This document shows, in pieces, positions 1-17,364 of a stretch of DNA of 64,000 nucleotides; position 1 is the stretch's first letter, and each line of letters begins with the position of its first letter. A model generated the notes under the pieces. It saw only the letters and a list, made by a program, of their open reading frames with translations. It was not told where the DNA came from and searched no databases. A program made the position numbers and the translations under genes. The DNA is from Pseudomonadales bacterium (GTDB lineage: Bacteria; Pseudomonadota; Gammaproteobacteria; Pseudomonadales; DC-out160). The stretch lies in the NCBI GenBank assembly GCA_019090455.1, contig JAHRWA010000039.1, positions 186,001 to 250,000 on the forward strand. Reading direction: 5' to 3'.

Positions 1-1575
1 AGTAACAAACAACAATTGATATTGCGCATGGAACAACGCACTTTCCATAATTAACTGCTCTGTTTCAACCATTCCAAATCTAAACCCATTATCAGCATTC
101 GGAATTTCAAAAGCTCGGAGAAAAACAATTTGCGGTTTTCGTTTGAAAAAATATCCTAAATCATACTGCTTACTCGTATGATGGCCTGGGCTCAAACCAA
201 TCACCCGATCTGTCAAACCCGCCATATCATAAACATTAGCATCGGTTAAATACCCTAATTTCCCTATATCCACCATGCCAACACTTCTCGCTCCTACATC
301 TTTAACGAACTGTATTCGATAATCGTTTTCATAGTTGATGGTGAAGGCGGTACTCGTTGCGACTCTCGCTAGATAATGATTCTCCTTATGACATATTCCA
401 ACAAAAACACCAAAAGTCAGGCTAAGAATCAAGGTTATCGCTAACTTATGCTCCGTTTTTCTCTCTCTACTCTTTCCCGGATTACCCTCATTTTTCCCAG
501 TGTTTTCATCTTCCGGCAACTCTTTCACTTGCGACTTATATTTCACTTGCAAAAAGCTGGCGGAAACAAAATAACTGATACCAGATGCCGCCAGAATAAA
601 AAAGGTCATGGCAGGCATTAAGAAGCGATAAGATGACATCCAATCGCCTCCCTCAAGTACAGGGGGAATAAACCACAGAAAACCTGACAACAACATTTGT
701 CGATGAAAAGCCGTACCGATATAACCTCCCGCTAGAGCAAACATTACCAATAAAATAAAAAAATGAGACTCTGACAAGGCACGATAGACATATTCAAAAC
801 CAAGACTGATAACCGGCTCCTTGGCGTAATAGGTATTCGGTAATATGTCACTGAATACCATCCAACGCACCAGTAATAAAAGACAGAATCCAAAAACAAA
901 ATAACAAGCCATAGGAAAAAAACGCTTAATACCCAAGAATATATTTCTCTCAACAAGCCAACACTGCACAGCGCCGACAACCATGAAAAAGGGCGTTTCC
1001 GGCCTCATCCAAGCGGTAAGAAAAAAAAGAAAAAACAAATAACTTTGATAACTCAGATTGTATGTCGGCGACTTCAAAAAGGCTTCTGTACACAACACGA
1101 GAAGAAATATATACAGCATTTGCTCCATTCCCGTTGCTGCGTAATAGACAAAACTCGGTAATAGTGCAGCCATCACAACGACACCCAAAGCCCATTGGCT
1201 GGTGGCATACCGTTGTACTGTTTCCGAAATACGCCATATCGTAAGCATAAATACAGATACACCAAGAACAACTGAAATAATCAGAATATTGTGCGACCCG
1301 AATAACACACCGAACCCCGCCAACAATAGAAGCCACAATGGTGAGGAAAAACCCTCAACAACGGCTCCTTGAGGGTTATAGACAAAACCAAACCCATCAA
1401 TCAGGTTTCGAGCATAACGGTAGGTAATATACGAATCATCAATTTGAAAAGGTAATATATTTAAAATATAAATACTGGCAAATAACAACGAGAAAATTAA
1501 AACTAAGAAAGAGATTTTTGGGTGAACTATGGCTACTAATTTTTGCTTTGCCAATTTGAACTGAAATTCTGACAT
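1..1575 (-). CDS. GT-C family polytopic membrane glycosyltransferase (AftB-like), C-terminus cut by window edge
   Basis: I translated the minus strand by hand from the ATG at 1575; it stays open for 525 codons to the left edge. The family transfers sugars from polyprenyl-phosphate donors on the outer face of the inner membrane. After a first membrane helix (about residues 21-42) comes the GT-C loop with Asp46-Asp47 in DDSYITYRYARNL. Then follow YNPQGAVVEGFSSPLW, RPE, PNTYYAKEP and GGDWMSSYRFLMP, the last two being hallmarks of this AftB-like family, with many hydrophobic helices between. VGMVDIGKLGYLTD and DMAGLTD fall in the soluble C-terminal part. It lies 83 nt downstream of the hydrolase gene on the same strand, so it may belong to the NRPS-PKS operon. 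Sugar and acceptor cannot be read from the sequence. Confidence 0.8.
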   Translation of the reverse strand, partial: MSEFQFKLAKQKLVAIVHPKISFLVLIFSLLFASIYILNILPFQIDDSYITYRYARNLIDGFGFVYNPQGAVVEGFSSPLWLLLLAGFGVLFGSHNILIISVVLGVSVFMLTIWRISETVQRYATSQWALGVVVMAALLPSFVYYAATGMEQMLYIFLLVLCTEAFLKSPTYNLSYQSYLFFLFFLTAWMRPETPFFMVVGAVQCWLVERNIFLGIKRFFPMACYFVFGFCLLLLVRWMVFSDILPNTYYAKEPVISLGFEYVYRALSESHFFILLVMFALAGGYIGTAFHRQMLLSGFLWFIPPVLEGGDWMSSYRFLMPAMTFFILAASGISYFVSASFLQVKYKSQVKELPEDENTGKNEGNPGKSRERKTEHKLAITLILSLTFGVFVGICHKENHYLARVATSTAFTINYENDYRIQFVKDVGARSVGMVDIGKLGYLTDANVYDMAGLTDRVIGLSPGHHTSKQYDLGYFFKRKPQIVFLRAFEIPNADNGFRFGMVETEQLIMESALFHAQYQLLFVT

Positions 1576-1658
1576 CACTCTATGCCACTTGGAAACTTTA
1601 GTCTCAATTGTTGGACCTCTTGTTTTGAATTATTAGATTCATTAAATAACTGACTCGC

Positions 1659-2501
1659 CTATCTGTTAACACCTTGAAAAAGTTTGAGATGTGTACTTGC
1701 CCAGTTCGCTATGGTAGAAATCAGCTGATCGCGATGGGCTTGGACTGGATAGAGGTGCATGGCATGAGGGAAAAAGACTTCATCACAGCAATCCGCTAGG
1801 TTTTCGATACCCGAAGCCCGCGCGTACTGCCCTACTTCATTGTATCGACTTAAGGCATGGCTGGTGAAAATGGCTAAAACTCTACCTCGTTTTTCCATAA
1901 TATAGGAGAAACACTGTTCTTCATCTTCTCGTGTTGGCTTATCGCGAAGCGACTCCATTTCTTCTGATGCCGCAGTTGTTGATGCGATATGTCGATAAAC
2001 AAACCGAGCAAATATGCTATGCATAGTTAGCCATTTATACGGATTACTTATTTTCCTGAACCAATTACGCATATAAAATCGATTGTCTCTTGATGATATA
2101 GGGTCCATCAATATTAACCCTTTTACGCAGGGTTCAAGCGCAGTTAATTTTATTGCATTATCGGCCCCCGAACAGAGTCCACCCAGAATAAAATCTTGCA
2201 CACCAAAACGTTTATACAATGCTTCCTTAATGAATCCCCAATCCAATGCTACCGATTCGCGATTATTTAAACCTAACCGTGCAGGCGTATCCCCTTTACC
2301 AGAAAGGTCCACTCGCAATACGATATAACCTAACTCCGCCAACTGCCGACCCAACAATACATTCAGTCGATATGGCTCTTCTCTATGCAATAATCCTGCG
2401 TTAAACAAGATAACGATGGGGGCATCCGCCATAGTTTCTGGTAAGGAAAGCATACCAAAGCCACGATTATTTTCGCCATACCGGAAAAAATCTTCCTTCA
2501 T
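1659..2501 (-). CDS. alpha/beta hydrolase, similar to exosortase-A-associated hydrolase 1
   Basis: A 280-residue cytoplasmic alpha/beta hydrolase without signal peptide. The nucleophile elbow is GGLCSGAD near residue 109, with Ser as nucleophile. A downstream Asp in ILMDPIS and a late His in FFPHAMHLYP could complete the triad. The pattern VLRVDLSGKGDT followed by GLC at the elbow resembles the hydrolases that travel with exosortase A loci. Here it is instead the fourth gene of an NRPS-PKS operon. Its ATG overlaps the stop of the preceding hydrolase-like gene by 4 nt (2498-2501), so the two are translationally coupled. Since the assembly line has no fused thioesterase, a role in releasing or proofreading carrier-bound intermediates is a reasonable inference, not shown. 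Confidence 0.75.
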   Translation of the reverse strand: MKEDFFRYGENNRGFGMLSLPETMADAPIVILFNAGLLHREEPYRLNVLLGRQLAELGYIVLRVDLSGKGDTPARLGLNNRESVALDWGFIKEALYKRFGVQDFILGGLCSGADNAIKLTALEPCVKGLILMDPISSRDNRFYMRNWFRKISNPYKWLTMHSIFARFVYRHIASTTAASEEMESLRDKPTREDEEQCFSYIMEKRGRVLAIFTSHALSRYNEVGQYARASGIENLADCCDEVFFPHAMHLYPVQAHRDQLISTIANWASTHLKLFQGVNR

Positions 2502-3286
2502 AACTTCAGGACCTTCTCTGCTATCGCTTCGAGAACCGGTTTAGGACTTAGCAAACTCACATCGAACATGGGCCAACCATAATCAAAATTCGTCAAGGTG
2601 CAGTTTGTATAGATATTGTTATCCAAACTATTCTCATACACGCTCGTACTACCGGTCCGAATCACTTGCGTATCTGCTTTATTCTCACAGCGCTTTGCAT
2701 CCAGAGTTAAACTCTCAAACCACATTTTGAAGTCATCACTGTACGAAAAAGCCTGATAGCAGGTATCTATTGAGCCACTATCGGTAGCATTATCTTTTAC
2801 AGTCTTAACGTTATAAATCTTTGCCAGTTCAATATGCTGCTGCTTGAGTTGTTGATTTAGCTCCTCAATATAATGAATATAATCTAGCCCCGAAGTAATG
2901 GGGTCCCAAAATACATATCGTGATATTTGATTATGTACACTCTGCGCCGCAATCGTCGCACCAAACCGCACGCCTAACAACGTCACGGATTCAGCCCCCG
3001 TCAGAGCCAGACCTTCTTCAATGCAATCATCCAAATCTTTAACCCATTGCCCACCTTCCACCTCCAACAGATTACCGAAAGACTCCCCCGTACCGAGATA
3101 ATCAAATCGAATGACATGCATTCCTTTGGAGGCGCAACCATTAGCGAGATCCACTAAGGCTTTATAGCAGCGACGATATTCATCGAACAGGGGAGGACAA
3201 ATGATTAACAATCTAGTCGAGGTGATCTCACTAGCAGAGTGATAACTCCCAAATAATCTTTCATTTGAAAAAAAAAATAATTCCAT
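2498..3286 (-). CDS. alpha/beta hydrolase-like protein without nucleophile serine (exosortase-A-associated hydrolase 2-like)
   Basis: A 262-residue protein with an alpha/beta-hydrolase N-terminal half: LLIICPPLFDEYRRCYKAL, then VIRFDYLGTGES. At the position of the usual G-x-S-x-G elbow it reads LLGVRFGA near residue 106, so the nucleophile serine is replaced by Arg. The exosortase-A hydrolase 2 family, as I recall it, also carries a GLR-type elbow, so the change may be a family trait rather than decay. No late catalytic His is obvious in the C-terminal third. It starts 62 nt after the second NRPS stop and overlaps the next hydrolase by 4 nt. It may act as a non-catalytic partner of that enzyme; this is inference. 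Confidence 0.7.
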   Translation of the reverse strand: MELFFFSNERLFGSYHSASEITSTRLLIICPPLFDEYRRCYKALVDLANGCASKGMHVIRFDYLGTGESFGNLLEVEGGQWVKDLDDCIEEGLALTGAESVTLLGVRFGATIAAQSVHNQISRYVFWDPITSGLDYIHYIEELNQQLKQQHIELAKIYNVKTVKDNATDSGSIDTCYQAFSYSDDFKMWFESLTLDAKRCENKADTQVIRTGSTSVYENSLDNNIYTNCTLTNFDYGWPMFDVSLLSPKPVLEAIAEKVLKL

Positions 3287-3348: not shown

Positions 3349-6300
3349 CTATTGGAACAGGCGCCGCCAAAGGCTTTTCTTGCTTTTTGTCCCTTCTGGA
3401 TTGCCTGTCTTCTCTGGCTTTTCCTTCTCCACCGTAACGTCTAGTACTTTCACTGCTGGGTCTAACTCAGCCAAATACTTTTCGAAACTTGCTGCCAGTA
3501 TTTCTATGACACAATCATCAACTTGGGCTGAATCGTAATCAAAAACAGCTAATAATCCATCTGGCTGAATTCTAGTCCAAAATTCAACGGGATATTCTGT
3601 TTGTAACCGTGGTATATCAATTTGCCTTAATACTAGCTCAGCCAATTGTGATGGTCTAGTTCGAACATCCTGAAAACCAAAACTCACGGGGACAAAATCT
3701 ACAAACCCTTTTTTATCGTTGCCCGTATTTTCCACAATATCAGCAAACGTAATATCCTCGTGTCTCTGGAACTCCGAAAGTTGAGCCACAATGTTCTTAA
3801 GACTCGCAACGAAACCATCACCAGGAATTTGTAGTTTGCAGGGAACCGTTGATACGAAGCCACCGATCAATCCTATAACCTCCGCTGAATATCTTCCCGT
3901 CACCGGCAGACCAAGCGCAACATTACTCGTTTCCAATTGATCACTTAACGATTTCGCAAAAGCCGCAAACAATACTTCGTGTACTCGCAATTCGTTTGAA
4001 TCACAAAATAGCTCAATATTTTGCAATGTCTCTCGACTGAGGTTGAACACCTGACGCTGACAACCTCCTTTTTCCGCCTTTGATCGAATCAAAGGCATCG
4101 TAGCCACCTCTTCAGAAGCAGACGATTGATGAAAGTGCATCACCTCATCGCTAACCTTTCGCTGTCGACTCCAATGTGCATAATCACGATATTCCAATGT
4201 GTGCTGAGAAATCGACGATGCAGTATTTGCAATACTGGATAAATAAAATGCCTCCAGGTTATTGAGAAAAATATCGAAAGACCAACCATCAAAAATAAGC
4301 TGATGAGGCACTAGTAGTAAACAATGTTTTTGCTCAGCAAGTTTATACAACCTCACTCTGCATAGGAGACTGTTGATGGGTTCAAACGCCGTCGCGGATA
4401 CCTGTTCTGCATCTGCCGTCGCGGTAGCAAGAGGATCTACAGAATCACTCACATCCACAACCTCTAACATCGCAATTTCTGTCATGCGTTTGAGCTGTAA
4501 GTGATAGCCCCCTTCATTCTTTACCACCACCGTTCGCAGAGCCGTTTGATACTCAAACACTCGCTCGATACTTTTGCGAAATGCACTGAGCTGTAAGTCA
4601 CCCTCTAGCAACCATGCGGCGGGCAAATTATGACAAGTGGTCTCAGGAAAATCCAACTGACGCCGTAACATTCGCTCTTGATCATTACTGAGATCACGAA
4701 CAGCCGTACTGCTTAACGCCACTGGCCCCTGCACTGTCACCCTCTCTTGCGCTTTATTATTCGCTATTCTCTCGGCGAGTACAGACAAGGGGTGAGCGAC
4801 GATTTCAGCGGGCGTTAATCGAAATCCCGTTTCGGCGTCGATTCTTCGAATAGATTCCAACGCTAATAGCGAGTGTCCGCCGATATCAAAAAAACGATCA
4901 TCGCGTCCAATCGCGTTCTCTGGCTTAATCAGATCAGTCCAAATACTCGCAATGGTTTTTTCGAGCGGGCTATCCAATCCGCTTTTCGACAACAAAGTGG
5001 ATGCATTAAGTTCAGGCTTAGGTAATGCTTTACGGTTTAATTTTCCATTGGGCAATAGGGGAAGTTCATCAACGCTTAATAAATATTGAGGCACCATATA
5101 GCCTGGCAGCAATTCTCTCAGCCTTTTACGAATGGCTATGGTTTGAAATGATTCGTTTTCTGCCGGTACACAGCAAGCAACGATTCTCACATCCAGTGGC
5201 GACGGCTCCCAAAGATACACAGCAGAAGCCTGAACACTGGCAATACTGACAATAGACTGCTCTATCTCGCCCAACTCAATACGATACCCCCGCACTTTGA
5301 CTTGATCATCCAAACGGCCCAAATGCTGTATTTCACCATTCGGTAAGGTTTTACCTAGATCCCCCGTCCGATACAAACGCCCCCACTCAGGATGATCAAC
5401 AAATCGATCACCAGTGAGATTAGCCAGATTATGATATCCCAATGTCACTCCCTTACCTGCGATACAGATTTCTCCTGGAACCGATAAGGGTAAAGGATTC
5501 AATGCGGCATCCAAAATATAAAGCTGAGTATTAGCAATAGCCTTGCCGACAGATATCACTTCATCACAACTGGTGATGCGCTTACAAGAGGACCACACCG
5601 TGGTTTCAGTGGGGCCAAACATATTCCACAATTCTTTAGAACGAGGTAATAACGCATCAACAAGATCAATCGGTAATGCTTCGCCACCACACAGCGTCCT
5701 AATTTTCGACGCTGTTTTCAGTGCGTCATCGCCCCAATCACTGGCCAGTAATATTCTCCAAGTCGCTGGAGTGGCCTGCACTATAGTCACTGACTCTTCA
5801 GCAATTAGATTCGCCAGTTTCTCTCCATCCTTTACTTCTTGTCGGCTAGCAATTACCGTCGTTGCTCCGCTAATCAACGGTAAGAAAAGCTCCAAAACAG
5901 AAATATCGAAAGAAAGCGTGGTCACTGCCAGCAAACGATCACCAGCCTCGCAACCCGGTTCTCTCGCCATACTCTCCAAGAAATTAATCATCGCACTACA
6001 GGGGACAAGGATGCCTTTTGGTTTACCCGTGGAACCCGAGGTATAAATCGTATAGGCCAAACGATCTGGATCGACCTCACCGCTATCAATCTCACACCCA
6101 TCCCTATCATCTAGATTAATAGTATCTAGATCAATATGCGTAACAGACGCGTCACGTATTCCTTTCGGAGCAGATGAATCTTCAATAACAAACGAGGCAT
6201 CCGAATCCTCTAACATATAAATCAAACGATCTGCTGGGAAATCAGGGTCTAGCGGGAGATAAGCCGCACCCAGTTTTAAAATGGCAAAAACGCTGAGCAG

Positions 6301-7872
6301 CATTTTTTCATTTCGCTCACAGCACAGCCCTACCACGCTACCTTCAACAATTCCCTGCGCGGCCAAGTAGGAAGCGTACTGATTAGATCGGTTATCCAGT
6401 TCGGCATAACTCAATCTTGACTCACCCGACACTATGGCTAATGCATCTGGGCTTGTTTTTACGCGCTGGCGAAAAGCCGAGATAACATCCGTGCATTTAA
6501 CGGGATATTCTGTGTCGTTACTCTTCAATAGAGTAGGCGGAACCGCTTTCGTCAAAACAATATCGTTCAACAGAACTTGCGGATTCGCAATCACCGTCTC
6601 TAGAATACTCTCTAGCGCCATCAGCCAAGTCTTTATGGTTTCTTCGCAAAACAATGCTGTGGAATAAGTTGCCTCAATCACCAAAGTATCGGGAGAAGGA
6701 ACGACATTCAAAAAAACCTCAAAACTCTCCGCCGCTCTCGGTACGGTACGCAGAGTTGCGCTCGCCTCACCAAAATCCAGAGGAGGCATCGCTTGATCGA
6801 TGTTAAAAATGCTACTAATAAGAGGCACTCGAGAACGATCTAGCACCAACCCTTCTAACAGTTTTCCAAACGTAAAGTTGGGATGTTCACTGGCGGTGAG
6901 TACTTCTTCTTTTACCCTAGTGACCAAATCGACAAATGAAGTCTCGCCATCTAATGAAACCCGTATAGGCAGTAACTGCACCATATGGCCTACCAAACTC
7001 AATTGCTTCATCGCCACCTGTCCGGCAATCGGCAAACCAACGACGATATCCTCATTTTGAGTTAGGCGATTCAGCAGAGCAAAATAACTCGCCATAATCA
7101 AATTCACTAGACTGGCTTTGAAACCCGCAGCGGCTTTAGGTAACGCTTTCGCCAATTCTGGGGAAACAGCGTAATCAAAGCGAGCAGCTTGAAAAGGTCG
7201 CGTTTGTGGCCGCCCCCAATCCAAGGGCAAGTCTAATACCGAAGGAAGGTCACGAAATTTCTCGCGCCAAAAATCAATATCAGTGTTCGCAATCTGCGCC
7301 GCATCTTGTTGTTCTGCGAAATCAAAGAAGGACGCGGCCTCGTTTCTTTTATTGGGATCGCCTCGATACAGTTCACTCAGCTGATTCAACAGCAATCCTA
7401 AGGACCAGCCATCACAAACAATATGATGAACCACAATAATCAACTCATAGACATCGGCTTCTAGCTGTTTCAACCAAACAAATAACAGCGGACCTTCTTC
7501 TAGATTCATCGGGGATATTGCAATATTTTGCCAAAGATCCGCGATCTCAAGTTTTTGTGTTGTTTCATCTAGGGAACGAAGATCTTCAAAATCGATTGTT
7601 AAATTCCGAGTCTCCTGCAAACACAATTCATCGCCTCGACGTGAAAAAGTGGCCCGTAGAATATCGTGTCTCTCAATCAACGTATCAAAACAGGCTTCAA
7701 GCCTTAACAAATCAAGGCTGCCTTTCACCGTGAGAGAAACCGCTTCATTAAATGCTGTATTGGCCACATCACTCATTTGAGCCGACGCGATAATTTCCTG
7801 TTGCGGGCCTGTGGTTGAACTGACTCGCAATATTTCTCCGCCAGCAAACGGATCGAACTCTTCTGTACTCAT
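3349..7872 (-). CDS. Non-ribosomal peptide synthetase, domains C-A(Gly)-PCP-C
   Basis: A 1507-residue NRPS. The first condensation domain has an intact HHIVCDGWS near residue 150. The adenylation domain carries TIYTSGSTGKPKG (about 606-620), NMFGPTETT (about 746) and NGKLNRKALP (about 943). Reading the specificity positions by hand gives DILQLGMVWK, very close to the known glycine code DILQLGLIWK. The carrier domain has FFDIGGHSLLALES near 995. A second condensation domain follows, but its active-site motif reads HQLIFDG near 1193, so the second, catalytic His is Gln. There is no thioesterase or reductase; the tail is short, Lys-rich and basic. The ATG overlaps the TGA of the upstream megasynthase (7869-7872), so the product should be passed directly between the two proteins. 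Confidence 0.93.
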   Translation of the reverse strand: MSTEEFDPFAGGEILRVSSTTGPQQEIIASAQMSDVANTAFNEAVSLTVKGSLDLLRLEACFDTLIERHDILRATFSRRGDELCLQETRNLTIDFEDLRSLDETTQKLEIADLWQNIAISPMNLEEGPLLFVWLKQLEADVYELIIVVHHIVCDGWSLGLLLNQLSELYRGDPNKRNEAASFFDFAEQQDAAQIANTDIDFWREKFRDLPSVLDLPLDWGRPQTRPFQAARFDYAVSPELAKALPKAAAGFKASLVNLIMASYFALLNRLTQNEDIVVGLPIAGQVAMKQLSLVGHMVQLLPIRVSLDGETSFVDLVTRVKEEVLTASEHPNFTFGKLLEGLVLDRSRVPLISSIFNIDQAMPPLDFGEASATLRTVPRAAESFEVFLNVVPSPDTLVIEATYSTALFCEETIKTWLMALESILETVIANPQVLLNDIVLTKAVPPTLLKSNDTEYPVKCTDVISAFRQRVKTSPDALAIVSGESRLSYAELDNRSNQYASYLAAQGIVEGSVVGLCCERNEKMLLSVFAILKLGAAYLPLDPDFPADRLIYMLEDSDASFVIEDSSAPKGIRDASVTHIDLDTINLDDRDGCEIDSGEVDPDRLAYTIYTSGSTGKPKGILVPCSAMINFLESMAREPGCEAGDRLLAVTTLSFDISVLELFLPLISGATTVIASRQEVKDGEKLANLIAEESVTIVQATPATWRILLASDWGDDALKTASKIRTLCGGEALPIDLVDALLPRSKELWNMFGPTETTVWSSCKRITSCDEVISVGKAIANTQLYILDAALNPLPLSVPGEICIAGKGVTLGYHNLANLTGDRFVDHPEWGRLYRTGDLGKTLPNGEIQHLGRLDDQVKVRGYRIELGEIEQSIVSIASVQASAVYLWEPSPLDVRIVACCVPAENESFQTIAIRKRLRELLPGYMVPQYLLSVDELPLLPNGKLNRKALPKPELNASTLLSKSGLDSPLEKTIASIWTDLIKPENAIGRDDRFFDIGGHSLLALESIRRIDAETGFRLTPAEIVAHPLSVLAERIANNKAQERVTVQGPVALSSTAVRDLSNDQERMLRRQLDFPETTCHNLPAAWLLEGDLQLSAFRKSIERVFEYQTALRTVVVKNEGGYHLQLKRMTEIAMLEVVDVSDSVDPLATATADAEQVSATAFEPINSLLCRVRLYKLAEQKHCLLLVPHQLIFDGWSFDIFLNNLEAFYLSSIANTASSISQHTLEYRDYAHWSRQRKVSDEVMHFHQSSASEEVATMPLIRSKAEKGGCQRQVFNLSRETLQNIELFCDSNELRVHEVLFAAFAKSLSDQLETSNVALGLPVTGRYSAEVIGLIGGFVSTVPCKLQIPGDGFVASLKNIVAQLSEFQRHEDITFADIVENTGNDKKGFVDFVPVSFGFQDVRTRPSQLAELVLRQIDIPRLQTEYPVEFWTRIQPDGLLAVFDYDSAQVDDCVIEILAASFEKYLAELDPAVKVLDVTVEKEKPEKTGNPEGTKSKKSLWRRLFQ

Positions 7873-10800
7873 GGACGACCTACTTCTGTTTTTCCAACTT
7901 CTGTTTTTTTAACTTCTAGGTTTTTTACTTCTAGGTACTTGCCTTTATTCTTGGGATCTTCCACAAAGTATGCTGGCTCCCCTTTCGCATTTTTCCCCAG
8001 TCGCGCACCAGGTGGTATCGGTGTTTCTTGCTGATCAAAATAGCTTTTAGCCGCAACACTATCCCCTTCAATCAAACCCATTCTGACCAGATGAGCAAGA
8101 GAGTTTTTAAACGCTTCGATTATTTTTCGAATATCTTTTTCGCTGTGCTCCGTAGTCAGAAAGTTAGGTCGGTATTGTTGAATATTAATCCCTTCATAGG
8201 TCATCATGGTGAAGAGTAAATGTCCCCAATGGGCATTAGCAGGCACCGACACGTAAAACAAAGAAGCAAATTCCTCGAGCTTAACCTCACACTTCATCTC
8301 ACTGATAAAAGCTTTCACTTCTGTTGCCATACTCTGAGTCTTGTCCGCTAACTGAGTATAAAGCGACGGGCCCAACTCCTTTATCTTATGCAGCACCGCA
8401 TTCGCGGCGGCTAAACTCAAAGGATGACGAACGAAAGTCCCTGCAAAAAATGTCACGCCGACCTCCGGTATGGAATCATCCCCGTACTGCCAAGTCCCAC
8501 CATCAAGGGCATCCATAAACTTCGCCTTGCCTCCGATTAACCCGATAGGAAACCCACCCCCCACAACCTTACCGTAGGTCGTCAAATCAGCGTCAATACC
8601 GAAGTACTCTCCAATCCCTCCCGGCGCAACTCGAAAGCCCGTGACCACCTCATCCAAAATTAGCGCTGTTTTATTGTCTTCCGTAATTTGACGCACCGAC
8701 TTTAAAAACTCACCATCATGATACTCGGGCATACGACTTTGTACTGGCTCAATCAGTACTGCCGCCAACTCCTTACCCAGAGATCTAATAATATCCAAAC
8801 TCTCATCATCCGCCCAAGGCAGGACTAGCATGTTATGCGTCATCTCCTTGGTGATTCCTGGCGCGGCCGGCAAAGCTTGATAGTCTCGTCCAGGACGATT
8901 AATCACCTCGTCAAATATCCCATGATAACTGCCTTCAAACATAACGATTTTACTGCGCCCTGTTACGGTACGTGCCAAACGTATCGCCCCCATCACCGCT
9001 TCAGATCCCGTACTGGCGAAGGTACAGCGCTCATTACCTGTCAACTCACAAAACAATTTCGCCACCTCACCCGCCAAGAGTGACTGAGGTCCAGTTTCAA
9101 CACCTTTATCCAGCTGTTGTTTAACGGCGTCAGTAATAAAGTCAGGGGAATGCCCAAAGAAAATCGGACCAAAACCATTGGCGGTATCAATTAACTCATT
9201 ACCGTCGATATCCCACAATTTTGAGCCTTTTGATCTCTCCGTCACGATGGGAAAAACGATTTCTTTCCACTCAGGATTAAACCCAGACACCGTTCGCGGA
9301 TCGGCTAAATGCTTTCGATGTTTTTGTGTCAGCGCTTTTGAGGAGGAAAACTTTTTCTCATAGTTCAACATCACCTCATCAATCCACTGCTTTTGCGCTT
9401 GGCTCAATGTCACCCCCACCTTCTCTCGGGTAATGCGAGTTCCCGGTGTATGCCTTGCTTTCCCTTTGGTCTCTACAGGTTTATCTAACTCGGCGGGCGT
9501 ATTCGTCAATGGTAAGTTTGATGATGATACGTTTGGTGATGACACGTTTGGTGATGACACGTTTGGTGATGAAAGAGTAGTTGGCGACAAGGTAGTAGCC
9601 GCCAGTTGCATCTGCATCACTTGCAATTGCGCTTGAATTAAATCGTGTATCGCATTGCCCGTCGCGCCTATCGGTTGCTGATTCACTATCGGCTGTGATG
9701 CTGGAGAGGGAGATACTGATGTTGTATCAGGTGTTTCTTGAATCTCAGCAGGTACACGCTCTGCAATAAACTCACTCAACTCCCCTAGACAAGTGTAATC
9801 TTCCACCAGATGACGAAAGGTAAGACCCACATCAAAACATCCATCAATCGCCGTCGCCGCTTGAGTCAGTAGTAACGAATCTAAACCCACTTCGCCAAAA
9901 TGCGTCTCTAGCGCCATGTCCATAAGATCATAACCCGTTACATCCTCAAACAATTCCTTAAGACGTTGTTGTACTCGTTGTAAGTGTTGCTCTCCACTCA
10001 TGGTGACTTCCGGTATTGTATTTGACGAATTTTTGGTTGATGTCGATTGATTTAAAGATGTTTCAGGCAATACGTTAGGCTGCGTTTGCCCCGGTTGCGC
10101 GGTGTTAGTAAGGCTTAACAATAAATTTTTCTGTTGTAATAACTGTTCTTGTAATAACTGTTCTTGTAATAACTGATTCTGAGATAATTCAGACGACTGA
10201 GGCGAAATTGTAGAATTAGGTTCCACTGCATCTAACCAATGAACCTCAGCTGCAAAAGCATATCCTGGTAAGCTTACCTTTTTCATTTGCTCAGATTGAA
10301 AATGCGCTTTCCAGTCTATGGGAAAACCTTTTACCCAGAGCTTATTGAGCCCCTGTAAGACTTCCATCCCATTTTCACGATTCACGCCATAATTCGGCAA
10401 GAGAGGAACACTAACGGTCTCACCAAGATTATCTTGAAAAGCCGCAAGCGATAACAAGGTACTGCCAGGTCCCACCTCCAACAACGCGAGGGAATAATCA
10501 CTATACTGATTTAATAGCGTTTTCATTGCAGACGAGAATTGCACCGTCTTTCGCAATTGATTTGCCCAATACTCCGAAGACATCGCCTCCTCAGCACTCA
10601 AAGTCAGACCCGTAGCCGTGGAGATAATAGGAATATTCGGCGCGTGACGCGCCACTTTATTAACCGCATCGCGAAATGGCTCCACGATAGGCTGCATCAT
10701 GTCAGAGTGAAATGCATGACTCGTCTTCAGTAAAGTCGAATCAATATCTCGTGAAATCAGTTTCTGTTCAAATGCCTTGAGATCCTTATTTGTACCTGCG

Positions 10801-13800
10801 ACACCAGTTAACAACGGTGCGTTGTGAGCCGCTATACACAAAGAGCCCGTCATCAAATCGGCTATATTTTCAGATCCTGTTTTTACCGCCAACATCGATC
10901 CCGTTGGCATCGACTGCATTAACGCACCTCGGCGCGCTACCAACGTGGTTGCATCCTCAAAACTAAACACACCCGCAATCGCAGCAGCGGCAAACTCGCC
11001 AATGCTATGACCGATGAGTACATCCGGTTTGCAGCCTTTTTTAATTAAGTACTGAGCTAAACAATATTCCAGCAAAAATAAGGCAGGCTGTGCAATTTGG
11101 GTTTGGTTAATGTCCAGCGCTTTTTTACTAACCACTTCCCCATTAAACAATATGGAACGAATATCAAATCCTTCCTGATCCGCAATCAGCTCACTACCCC
11201 GATCAAAGGTTTCTCGATAATCCACATCGGACTCATACAAACAACGGCCCATCATCACTCTCTGAGAACCTTGCCCCGAGAATAAAAATGCGCTCTTCCA
11301 GCCTACGCCTTTGAGCACCTCTCCTCTTACGACTTGCTTCGATTGTTGATCCAGATTATCGATCAACTCAATCACTGTCTTGCCTGACACTGCGGCTCGA
11401 TAAGAAAAGTGTTTTCGTCCCAGTGCAGAGGTATAAGCGATTTTGGCTATTTCGCTTTTTTCGCATTGCTCGAAATTCTCTTCTTTCTCAACATTCTCTT
11501 CTAAATTAATATCCTTAAGAAATTCAGAATAGCGATCCAATTGTATCGCCAAAGATTCCTTCGATTTAGCAGACACAAGCACTGAAAATGGCTCAGACGA
11601 TAGTTCAGATTTTTCCGCATCTTTCGCTTGTTCAATCAAAACATGAGCATTCGTACCGCCAACACCCAATGAGGTGATCGCCGCCCGACGAGGTGCATCA
11701 GACAACCACGGTTTAAGCGTGTTATTGACATAAAAGGGGGTTTTTCCCAATTCCAGTTTCGGATTAGCCGTCTGAAAGAATAAGGTCGCGGGTATTTGTC
11801 CACGCTGCACTGACAGCACGGCTTTAATAAAACTGGCAATACCGGCTGCATGTATCGCGTGACCAATATTGGATTTGACCGAACCAATAGCGCAGGTTTT
11901 TTTGGTTCCAGAATTTACCGCATAACTTTGTCTTAGCGCCTCGATTTCGATGGGGTCACCCAAGGGTGTTGCCGTACCGTGTGTTTCAATAAAACCCACT
12001 GAGCTGGGTTCAAAACCAGACCGAGCCAGCGCTGCATTATAGACATCTACCTGACCGCCCACACTGGGCGCAGTGAAACTCGCCTTCTGTTCACCGTCAT
12101 TATTCACAGCATGGCCTTTCACAACCGCATATATTTGATCCCCATCCCGCTGCGCTAAATCAAGACGTTTTAGAACGACCATACCAGCACCGTCGTTAAA
12201 GGTGGTGCCAGTGGCTTTTGCGTCAAATGGCCGACAATGGCCATCCACTGAAAACATCCCCCCTTCTTGATATAAATAACCACTCTGTAATGGTGTCGTG
12301 ATCGAGACGCCACCGGCAATCGCCATCTCACAATCACCGCGCTCTATGCTGGCACAAGCTTGCGATACCGCCACTAGCCCAGTTGAACACGCACTGTAGA
12401 CATTGACGCTGGGTCCTTTCAGGTTTAATTGGTAAGAAATACGAGTCGTTAAAAAATCCGCTTCATTCGCCAACGATGCATTGAAGGCGCCATATCGCTT
12501 TAGCAAACTTTTATTAGGTAATACATATTGATGAAAATAGCGAGGCCAATTAGCGCCCGCAAAAACTCCCGTACGTAAGCCTTTATCCCCCTGATCAGCA
12601 TCGGCATCCCCTGGTGGATAACCTGCATCTTCCAATGCATGCCAAGCCATTTCTAACATCACTCGATGCTGCGGATCCATCACATCCGCTTCAACAGGTG
12701 AAATCCCAAAAAACTTCGCATCAAATTTATCACTGTCATCCACTACCCCTTTGGCTCTCACGTAGTGTTTGTGATGACGCTCTTCCTGATCCACTTCAGA
12801 ACTAATTTCGTCTTCGTTGAAGAAGCGGATGGTTTCTTTTCCTGCTACCAAATTATCCCAAAACTCTTTGGCATTTTTTGCCCCCGGAAATCGGCAAGCC
12901 ATTCCAATCACAGCACAATCAACTGTTGTCGTACTGGCACTGGCACTGGCACTGGAAAGATATCTCTTTTCTTTTTCACTACTCTCTAGAAAAAAGCGTA
13001 ACTGAGTTTGTACGCTGGGATACTCAAATACGAAGGTCGACTTGAGTGTTATCGAAAACACTTTTTCTAAGGCTTCCGCTAATTGCACTGACTCCAGCGA
13101 GGTCCCCCCCACATCCAAAAAATTATCATCTGCTGCCACCTGTCGGCCAAGTATGGTTTCCCAGCAATTCGCAATCGCTTTATGGCTAGAAGCAAGATCC
13201 ATTTTTGAGTTTCTAGTTGGATCTTTATTTGAGTCTTTAGTTTTATCTTTAGAATAGAAAGGATCGGGTAATTTAGATTCGTCTAGTTTTCCATTTTTAT
13301 TCTTAGGTAATAACGCCATCGGGATAATAAAGTGCGGCAACATAAAGTCAGGCAGTTTGACGGCAAGCTGCTCACGAATCGCTTGTCGATTCAATCCAGA
13401 TTTCAATTCCTCTTTCGAAGCCTCATTTCTCGTAACGACATAAGCCGTTAATCGCTTTTGCCCCCGAGGTCCCAATTTCACGAAGACTCTCGCTTCGACT
13501 ATGTCGGGAAGTTCATTAATGACTAGCTCAATTTCTCCCGGTTCGATTCGATGACCGTCGATCTTTATTTGTTTGTCATTGCGTTGCAAGTAATCGTAGC
13601 TACCATCATCGAGCACAGTCACCAAATCACCCGTCCGATACCCTTTGCGTATGTCACCATCACGGCAGGCAATATCAACAAACCGCTCGGCACTCAATTC
13701 CGGGCGATTAAGGTATTGCGTAGCCACGCCATCACCAAAAACGATGAGTTCGCCTTCACCCGATGCGGGTTTCAATTGCTCGTCAAAAATATCGCAAGTA

Positions 13801-14819
13801 GTACCTTTGATGGGATAACCAATGGGTATTCGTTTAATCCCTTTCGGTAGTTTTTTAGGGATAGGGTAGACAGTGCTGAAAGTCGTATTTTCGGTGGGGC
13901 CATAACCATTATAAAATGCCGTGTTAGGCAACGCCACCAAGCCTTTCCGAATATGGGATACCGATAACGCCTCACCGCCAATGATTAATTGCTTCACGCC
14001 AGCTAGCGATTCAGAGTGATCCGAGATGATGGCGTTATACAAAGAAGTGGTTAACCATAACGTAGTGATGTGTTGCGATTCGATGGAATTTCTAATGCCG
14101 GCGGGCGTCAACACCTCTATTTCTGAGTGCAGGACACAAACCCCACCGTTCAGCAAAGGCCCCCAAAGCTCAAGTGTGGAAAGATCGAAGCTTAAAGCCG
14201 ATAACTGGAAAAACACTTCCTTGGAATTGAAATCGATATAGTCAGTTTCACAAACCAATCGAGTGACACCTCTATGTGGGACAACAACACCTTTTGGAGC
14301 ACCAGTAGAACCCGATGTGAAAATAATATACGCAGGAAGTTCCGCATCCGTGCTCACTTTGATCTGTAAATTCAACGACGGATTTGAACCCAAGGATTGA
14401 TCTGAACCCAATGATTTCTCAGTAATCGGAGTGGAGTGCCATTGGATATTCAAATTATTGGCGGTAGGTATTGTGCTATCACACAAGCCAACGGTTGCTC
14501 CTACTTCACTACAAATAAATTGTTGTCTCTCCAGAGGATAATTGCCATCAACAAAAACATAGTGCGCGCCCACCCATAATATTCCCAATAAATTAGAACA
14601 TAATTGCGGGCTTCGTTGAGACATGAGTATAACGGGATCACCTGAACCAACCCCTATCGAGGCTAAATATGCAGCGGTATGTCGAGCTTCCACCAACAAT
14701 TCCGCATAGGTAATACCATGCCAGTCATTGTCAATACAGTACTTAACGGCAATATGATCTGGATACTTCTGCGCAGTCGCGACAAATATTTCAACTATTG
14801 TTTGCAATCTTCTACTCAC
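7869..14819 (-). CDS. Hybrid NRPS-PKS megasynthase, domains A-PCP-KS-AT-PCP-aminotransferase
   Basis: A 2316-residue hybrid enzyme without a leading condensation domain, so it is a loading protein. Adenylation: IIFTSGSTGAPKG near 163, YNGYGPTEN near 302; the code DLLWIGGTFK is nearest the valine code DAFWIGGTFK. First carrier: FLDVGGTSLES near 567. Ketosynthase about 631-1060 with SACSTGL, ETHGTA and SNIGHA. Acyltransferase about 1176-1455 with GHSIGE and HAFHS, the malonyl signature. Second carrier: GEVGLDSLL near 1645. Class III aminotransferase about 1850-2270 with the PLP lysine in TTYGKVVGGG near 2080. The order resembles MycA/ItuA-type enzymes, which make beta-amino acids. No ketoreductase is present, so transamination of the beta-ketone is the expected step. 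The start is uncertain: GTG at 14819 lacks a spaced ribosome site, and TTG at 14807 is preceded by GAGAAGTGAG. Confidence 0.93.
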   Translation of the reverse strand: MSRRLQTIVEIFVATAQKYPDHIAVKYCIDNDWHGITYAELLVEARHTAAYLASIGVGSGDPVILMSQRSPQLCSNLLGILWVGAHYVFVDGNYPLERQQFICSEVGATVGLCDSTIPTANNLNIQWHSTPITEKSLGSDQSLGSNPSLNLQIKVSTDAELPAYIIFTSGSTGAPKGVVVPHRGVTRLVCETDYIDFNSKEVFFQLSALSFDLSTLELWGPLLNGGVCVLHSEIEVLTPAGIRNSIESQHITTLWLTTSLYNAIISDHSESLAGVKQLIIGGEALSVSHIRKGLVALPNTAFYNGYGPTENTTFSTVYPIPKKLPKGIKRIPIGYPIKGTTCDIFDEQLKPASGEGELIVFGDGVATQYLNRPELSAERFVDIACRDGDIRKGYRTGDLVTVLDDGSYDYLQRNDKQIKIDGHRIEPGEIELVINELPDIVEARVFVKLGPRGQKRLTAYVVTRNEASKEELKSGLNRQAIREQLAVKLPDFMLPHFIIPMALLPKNKNGKLDESKLPDPFYSKDKTKDSNKDPTRNSKMDLASSHKAIANCWETILGRQVAADDNFLDVGGTSLESVQLAEALEKVFSITLKSTFVFEYPSVQTQLRFFLESSEKEKRYLSSASASASTTTVDCAVIGMACRFPGAKNAKEFWDNLVAGKETIRFFNEDEISSEVDQEERHHKHYVRAKGVVDDSDKFDAKFFGISPVEADVMDPQHRVMLEMAWHALEDAGYPPGDADADQGDKGLRTGVFAGANWPRYFHQYVLPNKSLLKRYGAFNASLANEADFLTTRISYQLNLKGPSVNVYSACSTGLVAVSQACASIERGDCEMAIAGGVSITTPLQSGYLYQEGGMFSVDGHCRPFDAKATGTTFNDGAGMVVLKRLDLAQRDGDQIYAVVKGHAVNNDGEQKASFTAPSVGGQVDVYNAALARSGFEPSSVGFIETHGTATPLGDPIEIEALRQSYAVNSGTKKTCAIGSVKSNIGHAIHAAGIASFIKAVLSVQRGQIPATLFFQTANPKLELGKTPFYVNNTLKPWLSDAPRRAAITSLGVGGTNAHVLIEQAKDAEKSELSSEPFSVLVSAKSKESLAIQLDRYSEFLKDINLEENVEKEENFEQCEKSEIAKIAYTSALGRKHFSYRAAVSGKTVIELIDNLDQQSKQVVRGEVLKGVGWKSAFLFSGQGSQRVMMGRCLYESDVDYRETFDRGSELIADQEGFDIRSILFNGEVVSKKALDINQTQIAQPALFLLEYCLAQYLIKKGCKPDVLIGHSIGEFAAAAIAGVFSFEDATTLVARRGALMQSMPTGSMLAVKTGSENIADLMTGSLCIAAHNAPLLTGVAGTNKDLKAFEQKLISRDIDSTLLKTSHAFHSDMMQPIVEPFRDAVNKVARHAPNIPIISTATGLTLSAEEAMSSEYWANQLRKTVQFSSAMKTLLNQYSDYSLALLEVGPGSTLLSLAAFQDNLGETVSVPLLPNYGVNRENGMEVLQGLNKLWVKGFPIDWKAHFQSEQMKKVSLPGYAFAAEVHWLDAVEPNSTISPQSSELSQNQLLQEQLLQEQLLQQKNLLLSLTNTAQPGQTQPNVLPETSLNQSTSTKNSSNTIPEVTMSGEQHLQRVQQRLKELFEDVTGYDLMDMALETHFGEVGLDSLLLTQAATAIDGCFDVGLTFRHLVEDYTCLGELSEFIAERVPAEIQETPDTTSVSPSPASQPIVNQQPIGATGNAIHDLIQAQLQVMQMQLAATTLSPTTLSSPNVSSPNVSSPNVSSSNLPLTNTPAELDKPVETKGKARHTPGTRITREKVGVTLSQAQKQWIDEVMLNYEKKFSSSKALTQKHRKHLADPRTVSGFNPEWKEIVFPIVTERSKGSKLWDIDGNELIDTANGFGPIFFGHSPDFITDAVKQQLDKGVETGPQSLLAGEVAKLFCELTGNERCTFASTGSEAVMGAIRLARTVTGRSKIVMFEGSYHGIFDEVINRPGRDYQALPAAPGITKEMTHNMLVLPWADDESLDIIRSLGKELAAVLIEPVQSRMPEYHDGEFLKSVRQITEDNKTALILDEVVTGFRVAPGGIGEYFGIDADLTTYGKVVGGGFPIGLIGGKAKFMDALDGGTWQYGDDSIPEVGVTFFAGTFVRHPLSLAAANAVLHKIKELGPSLYTQLADKTQSMATEVKAFISEMKCEVKLEEFASLFYVSVPANAHWGHLLFTMMTYEGINIQQYRPNFLTTEHSEKDIRKIIEAFKNSLAHLVRMGLIEGDSVAAKSYFDQQETPIPPGARLGKNAKGEPAYFVEDPKNKGKYLEVKNLEVKKTEVGKTEVGRP
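9523..9567 (-). repeat. 15-bp tandem repeat coding SSPNV units in the carrier-aminotransferase linker
   Basis: Three consecutive 15-mers of the form gatgayacgtttggt lie inside the hybrid megasynthase and keep the frame. They encode repeated Ser-Ser-Pro-Asn-Val units in a low-complexity linker between the second carrier domain and the aminotransferase. Copy number could vary without breaking the gene. Confidence 0.85.
10131..10187 (-). repeat. 15-bp tandem repeat coding Gln/Leu-rich units in the AT-carrier linker
   Basis: Two exact copies of ctgttcttgtaataa, with one shortened and one degenerate flanking copy, keep the frame of the hybrid megasynthase. They encode LLQEQ units in the linker between acyltransferase and second carrier domain. 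Confidence 0.8.
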
Positions 14820-15044: not shown

Positions 15045-16211
15045 TTACTTAAACTTACTCTTACCCAATATATGATCGGAAATAATACGCAACTGAATTT
15101 CAGAGGTACCTTCAAATATCTTAGTGAGCCTCGAATCACGCCAATAACGCTCAACCGAATGCAGCTTTGTATATCCCGCTCCACCCAAAATTTGCAATGC
15201 TTCGCTAGTGACGCGTTCTGACATTTCAGAGGCAAAATATTTCGACATACCGGCCTCTTTGTCACATCGCTGCCCCGTGTCCACCTGAGCACACACGTGA
15301 TAATTCAGTTGCCGGGCAGCCTCGATCTCCGTTGCCATTTTAGCTAATTTGAACCGAGTCACCTGAAAATCAGCAATGCTACGACCAAACTGCTCTCGCT
15401 CTAATGCATAGGCTGTGGCATCTTCTAATGCTGCTTGTGCAAGACCGATAGCTCGAGCCGCGGTGTGAGCCCGCGCTGTTACCAAATCGGCACTGACAGC
15501 ATAAAATGCTCCGCCTTCGCTGCCTACCATGGCACTTGCTGGTACTCGCACACTATCGAAATGTAGCTCCCACGTTTTCCAACCAAAATAGCCAATCTTT
15601 GGAATCTCACTGCCATTCACACCTTCAGGGAGTTTACCCACTTCTTTTTCAATCTTGAAAAAAGTCAGCCCTCGATGTTTTTTGTTAGGGTCGATTTTGG
15701 GATCTGTTCTTACCATCACCAAAATATAATCCGCACCGTCGGCGAATGTGCACCAATATTTGCTTCCTGTGATAATCCAATCGTCGCCGTCTTTAACTGC
15801 TCGGCAAGTTACATTAGCAATATCAGATCCGGCTTCGGGTTCTGATAAGGCAATGGCACAAAGATAATCACCACTGGCCACTCGAGGTAAGGTCTCTTTC
15901 TTCTGCTCCTCTGACATTTCACGCACGCCAACCATACCGTTGCCCCGAGCAATGAGACTCGCCACACTCATCCAACCGCGAGCAAGCTCTTCTGCCACAA
16001 GGCAGTATTCGAAACAGCCTAAACCTAAGCCACCGTATTCCTCGGGAATCATGATGCCAAAATATCCCATATCGGCGAGCTTCTTTCGCAATGACATGGG
16101 GATATCGCCTTGCACTGCATCCAATTCCTTGGCGACGGGTACCACTTCTTTATCAGTAAATTTACGTGCAGACTCTTTTATTAGCTGCCTTTCCTCGGTG
16201 AGATAATTCAT
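15045..16211 (-). CDS. Acyl-CoA dehydrogenase
   Basis: An FAD-dependent acyl-CoA dehydrogenase of about 388 residues, oxidising acyl-CoA to 2-enoyl-CoA and passing electrons to ETF. I chose the ATG at 16211 (MNYLTEERQL) because GAGGG lies about 8 nt upstream; the open frame continues 26 codons further but without a good site. Family signatures are ALSEPEAGSD near residue 126, the helical C-terminal domain ending LQILGGAGY, and FEGTSEIQ near 366-373, whose Glu is the usual catalytic base. It lies divergent from an SDR gene across a 243-nt gap. It sits upstream of the megasynthase but behind a hairpin, so its part in that pathway is unclear; branched-chain or fatty acyl-CoA breakdown is equally likely. 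Confidence 0.9.
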   Translation of the reverse strand: MNYLTEERQLIKESARKFTDKEVVPVAKELDAVQGDIPMSLRKKLADMGYFGIMIPEEYGGLGLGCFEYCLVAEELARGWMSVASLIARGNGMVGVREMSEEQKKETLPRVASGDYLCAIALSEPEAGSDIANVTCRAVKDGDDWIITGSKYWCTFADGADYILVMVRTDPKIDPNKKHRGLTFFKIEKEVGKLPEGVNGSEIPKIGYFGWKTWELHFDSVRVPASAMVGSEGGAFYAVSADLVTARAHTAARAIGLAQAALEDATAYALEREQFGRSIADFQVTRFKLAKMATEIEAARQLNYHVCAQVDTGQRCDKEAGMSKYFASEMSERVTSEALQILGGAGYTKLHSVERYWRDSRLTKIFEGTSEIQLRIISDHILGKSKFK

Positions 16212-16454
16212 ATTCGTGGCCCTCAAATTAATTTGAGACGGGACTTTAACCCCTAACATTAACAATCTCAAGAAGATCAAAATTCTCACACCTAATACAT
16301 CAATCAGAAAATAGAAATCGAAAATCGAAAATCAGAGACCCCTTTTGTTTCTACTTGGGTGAATCTCACACCACTGGTAGACTCCTCCGCATAAGATTAG
16401 GAATGGCACAGATCAAGAGCTTGATCATCAACAGTAATACAGGAATACGACTCA

Positions 16455-17324
16455 ATGATTGAATACAAAAAACATTACGGCCTAACGGATGAAGAACTCA
16501 TTAACTACCCTACCGTTTTTGCAGATGATTTATTGAAAGGTCATGTGGCTTTGGTATCCGGTGCTGGTACAGGAATTGGTAAGGGTATCGCCACTTTATT
16601 TGCCCGACTCGGAGCCGACCTGGTCATCTGTGGACGTAATGAAGAACGATTAGAGAAATCGGCAGAATTCTTGAGAGGCTTTGGCGGACGAGTCGTCACC
16701 GATATTCTGACCATCCGAGACCCACTTAAAGTCGAAGCGCTGATGGATAAAGTCTGGCAAGAATATGGCCGACTCGACTATCTGATTAACAATGCAGGCG
16801 GACAATTTGCACAGAATGCTATCGATATCAGTTATAAAGGTTGGCAAGCCGTTATCGACACCAATCTCAACGGCACTTGGTACATGATGCAAAATGCGGC
16901 TAAGCGCTGGCGTGACACCGACGAGCCCGGCAGCATAGTTACCGTGACCGCTGACCTTTGGAGAGGAATCAATCAAATGTCACACACCACCGCTTCACGT
17001 GCAGGGGTTATCTACCTTGCTAAAAACCTTGCGGTAGAATGGGCACCATTCAATATTCGCGTGAATACCGTTGCAGCAGGATCTATAGAGAGTAGCGGCT
17101 TCAACAACTACGGCGACGAAGCACATGAATCTTTATTCAAACCGGGTTTAATGAAAAGACCGGGGCATGTGATGGATATCGCCGAAGCCTGCGTCTATGC
17201 CTCTGCTCATTCCGGCAATTACATTACCGGTGAAACCATAACCGTCGGTGGGGGAATGTCACTCTGGGGTGAGTTTTGGCCTGCAGGAAAACCCGACTAC
17301 TTCAAAGGTCCAGGAGAGGAATAA
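16455..17324 (+). CDS. SDR family oxidoreductase, DECR/PECR-like, lacking the YxxxK motif
   Basis: A 289-residue short-chain dehydrogenase/reductase. The nucleotide-binding motif is VSGAGTGIGKG near residue 35, and NNAGG is intact. Where classical SDRs have YxxxK it reads TTASR, followed by AGVIYLAKNLAVEWAPFNIRVN. This matches the dienoyl-CoA and trans-2-enoyl-CoA reductase branch, which also lacks the classical tyrosine. An acyl-CoA substrate is therefore likely. AGGAA lies about 8 nt before the ATG. It is divergent from the acyl-CoA dehydrogenase and could reduce enoyl-CoA products of the same route; that link is inference. Confidence 0.85.
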   Translation: MIEYKKHYGLTDEELINYPTVFADDLLKGHVALVSGAGTGIGKGIATLFARLGADLVICGRNEERLEKSAEFLRGFGGRVVTDILTIRDPLKVEALMDKVWQEYGRLDYLINNAGGQFAQNAIDISYKGWQAVIDTNLNGTWYMMQNAAKRWRDTDEPGSIVTVTADLWRGINQMSHTTASRAGVIYLAKNLAVEWAPFNIRVNTVAAGSIESSGFNNYGDEAHESLFKPGLMKRPGHVMDIAEACVYASAHSGNYITGETITVGGGMSLWGEFWPAGKPDYFKGPGEE

Positions 17325-17331
17325 CAGGTAC

Positions 17332-17364
17332 AAAAAAGGCCCCATTACCAGGAGCCTTTTTTTT
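17332..17364. terminator. Bidirectional rho-independent terminator between convergent SDR genes
   Basis: The arms aaaaaaggc (17332-17340) and gcctttttttt (17354-17364) form a stem flanked by an A-run on one side and a T-run on the other. It can therefore end transcripts from both converging genes. Confidence 0.85.

Follow-up and report, generated by a model that had tools for sequence, protein, structure and literature searches.

We have analyzed a window of 64,000 nucleotides from a bacterium of the Pseudomonadales, using the word window for the whole of that stretch of DNA. On its minus strand the list of open reading frames contains two large genes at the coordinates given in the initial annotation, confirming its observation of an NRPS-PKS line with an aminotransferase. 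The reading frames of proteins 1 and 2 share 4 bases. In protein 1, Pfam places AMP-binding at residues 14-370, ketosynthase (KS) at 636-1014, Acyl_transf_1 (AT) at 1178-1457 and Aminotran_3 (AMT) at 1856-2169, together with two PP-binding stretches; in protein 2 it finds two Condensation (C) stretches, AMP-binding and PP-binding. The KS, malonyl-type AT, carrier and class III aminotransferase expected in protein 1 are thus borne out by Pfam and by the motifs in Table 1, where we take HAFH of the AT to be the malonyl motif. The glycine-type module of protein 2 was also correctly foreseen, but the second, terminal C domain had been missed.

Table 1. Features of the two-protein line and of adjoining genes, in window coordinates
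Feature	Positions	Strand	Details and basis
Protein 1, A-PCP-KS-AT-ACP-AMT	7869..14819	-	2316 aa, GTG start; ORF, Pfam, motifs
Loading adenylation domain A1	13263..14780	-	Code DLLWIGGTFK, Val-type; Pfam AMP-binding and AMP-binding_C; code alignment
Peptidyl carrier domain 1 (PCP1)	13002..13178	-	VGGTSL; Pfam PP-binding; motif
Ketosynthase with C-terminal extension	11508..12914	-	Pfam; motifs ACST, HGTAT, NIGH
Acyltransferase, malonyl type	10449..11288	-	Pfam; motifs GHSIGE, HAFH
Acyl carrier domain (ACP)	9780..10007	-	Approximate limits; second PP-binding stretch in Pfam; motif GLDSL
Class III aminotransferase domain, MycA type	8085..9392	-	PLP lysine in TYGK (Lys2084 of protein 1); Pfam Aminotran_3; 403.8 bits to PDB 6kfm
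Protein 2, NRPS C-A-PCP-C	3349..7872	-	1507 aa; ORF, Pfam
Condensation domain C1	6547..7800	-	AMT-following clade; Pfam; tree; motif HHIVCDG
Adenylation domain A2	5041..6474	-	Code DILQLGMVWK (Gly); Pfam; code alignment
Peptidyl carrier domain 2	4789..4956	-	GGHSL; Pfam PP-binding; motif
Terminal condensation-like domain	3463..4695	-	Catalytic His replaced by Gln (HQLIFDG); Pfam Condensation at C35:189466-190692; alignment
Alpha/beta-hydrolase-fold protein, distant relative of exosortase-associated hydrolase 2 (TIGR03101)	2498..3286	-	Elbow GVRFG; NCBIfam 65.8 bits, cut-off 202.75
Alpha/beta-hydrolase-fold protein, distant relative of exosortase-associated hydrolase 1 (TIGR03100)	1659..2501	-	Cys elbow GLCSG; NCBIfam 38.4 bits, cut-off 168.45
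Hydrophobic protein	1..1578	-	574 aa, runs out of window; 80 bases behind previous gene; pathway membership uncertain
Acyl-CoA dehydrogenase, upstream of line	15045..16289	-	Pfam; probably outside core

Relatives of the line and the predicted substrates of its adenylation domains

A scan of genome contigs with the AMT domain returned 14 loci. At eight of these the AMT is 68-76% identical to that of the window: HTCC2143 (L012), Desulfatitalea (L013), Aestuariirhabdus (L014), another member of the Pseudomonadales (L015), Desulfobacula (L016) and Marinobacter (L017-L019). The AMT of Ruegeria (L020) is 47% identical, and L021-L025, at 29-38%, were left out of further comparison. A search at the level of the order added a ninth ortholog, G537, with 75% AMT identity and a protein 2 of order C-A-C-A; L057-L059, which judged by length are the same contigs as L014, L015 and L017, were counted once. 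In G537, whose genome comes in 7 contigs, a frameshift within the AT region breaks up protein 1 (L056:11241-17983), through either decay or an assembly error. At an E value of 1e-90, AMT matches occur in 10 of 369 genomes of the class and 12 of 390 of the order, the window's own included in both.

The AMT tree unites the window and its nine orthologs in one clade (100/100) separate from BamA. BamA is the sole fatty-acid-started reference in this and the C-domain tree, and any tie between either clade and starter type is accordingly tentative. These nine further clusters, from Gammaproteobacteria and Desulfobacterota, have the layout in common over the length that their contigs cover; protein 1 is truncated by a contig end in L018, and protein 2 in L013 and L015. 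Identity to the window in the eight relatives is 46-57% for protein 1 and 49-63% for protein 2. Because nine orthologous clusters share the layout, and dN/dS between L012 and L014 is 0.10 and 0.13 for the two whole proteins, the arrangement is more than chance. On the evidence of sequence, the enzyme line is genuine and has been conserved among bacteria.

Substrate codes of the A domains were extracted by alignment, with the offset at position 299 checked against Gly and Asn codes. Applied identically to BamA of bacillomycin, the extraction gave DLTKIGEVGK, presumably an Asn code, in agreement with the first Asn of bacillomycin, after the beta-amino acid. For A1 the alignment reproduced the Val-type code originally proposed. 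A1 also carries Asp at position 235 and Lys at 517, a pairing that by rule denotes alpha-amino acid substrates. The initial annotation had allowed that the first A domain might instead activate a fatty acid; an A-PCP unit with Asp235 and a Val-type code speaks against this.

Eight of the nine readable first A domains of the clade have Val-type codes: DLLWIGGTFK in the window, DLLWLGGTFK in L015, DAFWLGGTFK in L012, L014, L016 and G537, and DALWLGGTFK in L017 and L019. That of L018 is cut off by a contig end and stands outside the count. The ninth, in L013, is DFWNIGMVHK, which we take to be a Thr code. This Desulfatitalea ortholog (L013:464-8506) has an extra N-terminal C domain before its Thr-type A domain, so the module type seems to accept another, possibly acylated, amino acid. 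The orthologs vary at A1 code positions 236, 239 and 299.

The accessible part of a survey of 2051 A domains gives DALWIGGTFK among the commonest Leu/Ile/Val codes, used there as a Val code, DILQLGMIWK as a Gly code, and DVFWLGGTFK as reported from an Ala-activating domain (PMC12283262). Of six code strings sought in openly licensed papers only DALWIGGTFK was found, and not DLLWIGGTFK, so that these papers neither back nor contradict the latter. What stands of the proposed valine loading is an amino-acid starter with a Val-type code; the assignment of the near code DVFWLGGTFK to Ala makes Ala, Abu, Ile or Leu possible for A1. We regard a starter from among these, which would still give a 3,4-diamino acid, as conceivable but doubtful. 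It gains from that Ala assignment, from position 236, where the window's code and the usual Val one part, and from the Desulfatitalea ortholog, whose code suggests that the module type tolerates other amino acids; the predominance of Val-type codes in the clade argues against it.

The glycine code proposed for the second protein held up, DILQLGMVWK being present in eight of the nine readable clade members (L016 has DILQIGGVYK, and the second A domain of L015, being cut off, is not counted). Outside the clade, Gly codes of the DILQLG type follow the AMT in L020, L036, L037, L038, L039, L060, L061, L062 and L065, and a near variant does so in L040. None was found after the AMT in L041-L044, L063, L066, L068 or BamA.

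The aminotransferase and the absence of a ketoreductase

The central proposal of the initial annotation was that protein 1 lacks a ketoreductase (KR) and carries a MycA-type aminotransferase in the beta-ketone position. Both parts are upheld. In a search of solved structures the window AMT matched that of MycA with 404 bits, whereas no other family scored above 196.3 bits. It is a class III domain fused behind the ACP; across all 35 AMTs aligned its PLP lysine never varies, and neither do 42 other residues. A Pfam search of the full protein 1 of the window, L013 and L020 found no KR. The AT-to-AMT gap of the window, with the ACP inside it, is 321 aa, which we take to be short for a complete KR, and the corresponding gap is 222-341 aa in 25 of 25 lines measured. 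Two stand-alone SDRs lie at 16455-18218 of the window, without relatives in the other loci compared.

The AMT is the domain best conserved relative to the window in six of the eight relatives; the KS ties with it at 69% in L017 and is ahead in L018 (71 versus 69%). Across these eight clade members the AMT is 69-77% identical to that of the window, while the A domains reach 35-63%, the AT 40-53% and the linkers 26-40%. Desulfobacula illustrates this well, with KS at 53%, ACP at 28% and the AMT still at 75%. For the closest pair, L012 and L014, dN/dS of the AMT is 0.04, compared with 0.12 for the terminal C domain. The window AMT is 46.5% identical to that of BamA.

The MycA and BamA lines of mycosubtilin and bacillomycin D resemble that of the window in KS-ACP-AMT-C order, in their homologous AMT and in the homologous C domain that follows it. 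They start from a fatty acid via an acyl ligase. The window line, by contrast, has an A-PCP unit with Asp235 and a Val-type code in place of the iturin-type loading unit of fatty acyl ligase and ACP, so that the amine would land beside another amine. That neighboring amine could alter the behavior of the AMT, which we count against the diamine reading. A further comparison is with statine-forming modules, which have the order A-PCP-KS-AT-KR-ACP. The skeleton from amino acid and malonate would be alike, but in protein 1 Pfam finds no KR to act on the beta-ketone and the AMT is present, predicting an amine at C3 rather than a hydroxyl.

Condensation domains and neighboring genes

When 54 C domains were placed in a tree, C1 fell within a 27-member clade (100/100) made up solely of AMT-following C domains, that of BamA from bacillomycin D included; the two other C domains of BamA fall outside. 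Three AMT-following C domains (L041, L054 and L055) are also outside the clade, and we count these against the diamine reading.

The terminal domain of protein 2 departs from a canonical condensation domain, having HQLIFDG where HHxxxDG with its catalytic second His is expected. HQxxxDG is found in all seven terminal C domains of the clade, which form a clade of their own on a long branch (2.24). In G537, G396 and G395 the corresponding C domains, each followed by an A domain, keep HH, as does the terminal C domain of Variovorax. We considered the terminal C domain as the remnant of a third Gly module, represented by C-A in G537, G396 and G395, and rejected this on account of its separate clade and its identity of only 23-25% to those domains. 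The C tree nevertheless joins the two groups, with a long-branch warning, and descent from a C-A module of that kind is possible. Searching solved structures with a profile of the terminal C domain gave bacitracin synthase 3 first and then the 'special condensation domain' 8z0q, that is, ordinary C domains. The glycopeptide X domain, a recruitment platform, has the motif HRxxxDD, which differs from HQxxxDG, and the likeness to it is one of possible working only. Separate C-containing proteins whose C domain lacks the catalytic His occur near carbohydrate-related genes in Ruegeria (L020:17729-20224, HN) and Rhizobium sp. SL42 (L065:18617-21166, HQ).

Behind the line stand two genes of the alpha/beta-hydrolase fold. 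By NCBIfam they come nearest to TIGR03101 and TIGR03100, with scores well below the cut-offs of both families. The pair is found behind the line in all six loci that reach so far (window, L012, L014, L016, L017 and L019), with the elbow Arg of the GVRFG gene and C110 and H249 of the GLCSG gene invariant in the six. It is not directly behind the HH-type lines of G537, G396 and Variovorax. Elsewhere in the window genome a second pair like hydrolases 2 and 1 lies near a different large line, of a 2043 aa protein and then a ketosynthase protein (G000:C52; L096:8780-20000); proteins related to this set, in the same company, adjoin the AMT line of G537 (L073). Other NRPS genes abound in this genome (contigs C14, C39, C63, C2 and C79), with 48 condensation-domain matches, two of them in the window's line.

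The hydrophobic protein at the end of the window has no match in Pfam or NCBIfam and no relative in the other loci. A second hydrophobic protein lies behind the operon with a gap of 7 bases (L009:14212-15846) and matches PMT_2 mannosyltransferase with 46 bits. As possible parts of the pathway we considered the hydrophobic genes behind the operon and the acyl-CoA dehydrogenase, SDRs and acyl-CoA ligase at 15045-22056; the other loci compared contain no relative of any of them. The relatives have further neighbors. A JmjC/cupin gene lies beside the lines of L014, L017, L019, L056 and L060, with a fragment in L012; a family of 250-270 aa related to the TIGR04325 methyltransferases of Variovorax lies beside those of L014, L016, L017, L019 and L060; acyltransferase 3 accompanies L012, L014 and L056, and a GNAT gene L012, L017 and L019. 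None of these is beside the line of the window, and the JmjC-type gene has no match in the window genome.

A predicted route to a 3,4-diaminoacyl-glycine

We think it probable that the two proteins form a hybrid NRPS-PKS line that joins a Val-type starter to malonate, converts the ketone into an amine and then adds glycine. Domain order, motifs, codes, lack of a KR and conservation are direct observations, from which we infer each reaction by way of known families. A1 would charge PCP1 with a small branched alpha-amino acid, valine being the likeliest, and the KS would extend this with malonate supplied by the AT, yielding a 4-amino-3-oxoacyl-ACP. As a KR is lacking, the MycA-type aminotransferase would turn the C3 ketone into an amine, giving a 3,4-diaminoacyl-ACP (3,4-diamino-5-methylhexanoyl if valine is loaded). 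C1 would then transfer the diaminoacyl group to glycine loaded by A2, forming diaminoacyl-glycyl-PCP. With its catalytic histidine gone, the terminal C-like domain is, we guess, more likely a docking or hand-off platform than a normal condensation domain. Our best candidate for release or transfer, again a guess, is the Cys-elbow hydrolase fold with its partner that lacks the usual nucleophile.

The match to MycA, the conservation and low dN/dS of the AMT and the position of C1 make a beta-amine the best reading, and a beta-amine on an amino-acid starter would give a vicinal diamine, a prediction that is well supported. The strongest added support comes from the layout with its conserved AMT and from the place of C1 in the AMT-following class that includes bacillomycin D's domain. 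Of the interpretation as originally put forward, the amino-acid starter, malonyl extension, absent KR, MycA-type AMT and subsequent glycine all stand; the terminal C domain, the hydrolase-like pair and the exosortase setting (below) were missing from it.

The free amines of such a chain would be positioned for ring closure on chemical grounds, the C4 or C3 amine attacking the thioester and closing either a 4-aminopyrrolidinone or, with glycine, a ring of seven or eight members. Pfam finds no TE domain in the line, and the terminal C-like domain without its catalytic His would fit such an ending. We consider it improbable, however, as nothing in the sequence indicates cyclization and the hydrolase-like pair, present behind the line in every locus that reaches so far, argues for enzyme-assisted release. 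Retention of the ketone, through an aminotransferase that is inactive or acts on another substrate, is very unlikely. It would lead to an aminoacyl-malonyl-glycine beta-ketoamide or a tetramate, and the Val-malonate-Gly order does resemble that of andrimid, a beta-ketoamide of comparable order. The invariant PLP lysine and 42 other residues of the AMT, its dN/dS and the position of C1 inside the AMT-following clade all stand against it.

The A-CP-KS-AT-CP-AMT layout has been published before. As A-CP-KS-AT-CP-PLP1 it appears in Table 2 of a 2013 survey, exemplified by Pedobacter heparinus C6XWU5 (predicted Nrp-Mal-Gly-Pk), Thiorhodococcus drewsii G2E5C9 and Salinisphaera shabanensis F7QBN5, with Thiocapsa marina F9UAS6 as KS-AT-CP-PLP1 (PMC3870968). 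By the description in that table these proteins share the module layout of the window's, two of them with Gly predicted after malonate; the accessible part of the survey holds no product or discussion of a vicinal diamine for them (PMC3870968). In the accessible parts of the openly licensed literature we found no product for such NRPS-PKS lines and no link of them to exosortase, and no openly licensed paper on aminostatine or related names.

Guadinomine is a PKS-NRPS natural product in which a vicinal diamine is important for activity, as stated in the accessible part of the source (PMC6963908). It shares that diamine with the product predicted here, although its biosynthetic logic differs. 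The known route to it employs an aminomalonyl extender and an aminotransferase. To our knowledge, 3,4-diamino (amino-statine) acids are known from synthesis only. If the present route is real, it would provide a genetically encoded 3,4-diamino acid building block, and MycA-type aminotransferases would accept amino-acid-started chains.

The exosortase and polysaccharide setting

We searched for exosortase with TIGR03109 at E values up to 1e-5. Eight of nine clade genomes gave a match, the search covering all but that of L012 and the miss being the genome of L018. Among genomes with an AMT at least 48% identical to the window's there was a match in 14 of 16, the second miss being G261; the match in G245 is a weak one (37.6 bits), and G046 has its exosortase on a different contig. 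Only one of ten genomes with lower AMT identity has a match, a weak one in Ruegeria. The cut-off of the family is exceeded in only four of the 26 genomes (G000, that of the window, G380, G704 and G756). The background in the order is 121 of 381 genomes, compared with nine of nine for those with an AMT of at least 48%; 0.32 to the ninth power is 3e-5, a figure for relatives that are not independent.

AMT and exosortase are on one contig in seven genomes. Five belong to the clade, at distances of 8.5 kb (G756), 10 kb (G704), 10.5 kb (G755), 12.5 kb (G445) and 40 kb (G537), and two do not (G396, 15 kb; G395, 28 kb). In G380, G399 and G754 the AMT contig is shorter than 15 kb, too short to judge linkage. 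In Marinobacter algicola the line stands beside an exosortase set, with XrtA at 229.8 bits, PrsT at 437, PrsR at 674 and PrsK at 662, all above cut-off, among genes that we take to be glycosyltransferase and flippase-like, together with ligase genes. Some more distant AMT lines lie inside polysaccharide loci, in Aliiroseovarius and Rhizobium SL42; those of Spirosoma and A. vitis do not. Overall, the association of AMT and exosortase fades in the more distant AMT genomes.

Unlike those seven genomes, that of the window has the line on contig C35 (456 kb), beside cobalamin genes, and the exosortase on C103; we count this against an exosortase connection. It could also suggest that the cluster is a transferred or decaying remnant without a product there, as could the same-genus genome G001 (87% complete), which has no AMT match at an E value of 1e-60, but this is scarcely to be believed, as both frames are open, the catalytic motifs are intact apart from HQ, and HQ is common to all seven clade terminal C domains and so is not local decay.

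Returning to the 3,4-diaminoacyl-glycine, its fate as a decoration is a guess. The PEP-CTERM system has been tied to exopolysaccharide and floc formation in the accessible part of one study (PMC9850573). Close relatives of the line often have genes of exported slime polysaccharide as neighbors, and its product may accordingly decorate the surface instead of being a free antibiotic. Tentatively, and with a good deal of doubt, the doubly cationic 3,4-diaminoacyl-glycine might be passed on by the altered terminal C domain and the two hydrolase-fold proteins, the acceptor being an exopolysaccharide or a lipid-linked glycan that belongs to the exosortase/PEP-CTERM system. Small-molecule enzymes tied to exosortase have a precedent in the N-acyl amino acid synthases, which Craig, Cherry and Brady reportedly linked to PEP-CTERM/exosortase loci in 2011; unlike the present line, these are not NRPS-PKS enzymes.

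No role is known to us for the two hydrolases, 1 and 2, that are associated with exosortase A. If the proposed hand-off is true, exosortase-associated hydrolases 1 and 2 would be general transfer factors for carrier-bound acyl groups, and in this respect the exosortase link matters more broadly than the diamine building block. With a conserved line in two phyla that has relatives of these hydrolases behind it, the attachment of a peptide-polyketide to slime polysaccharide becomes testable.
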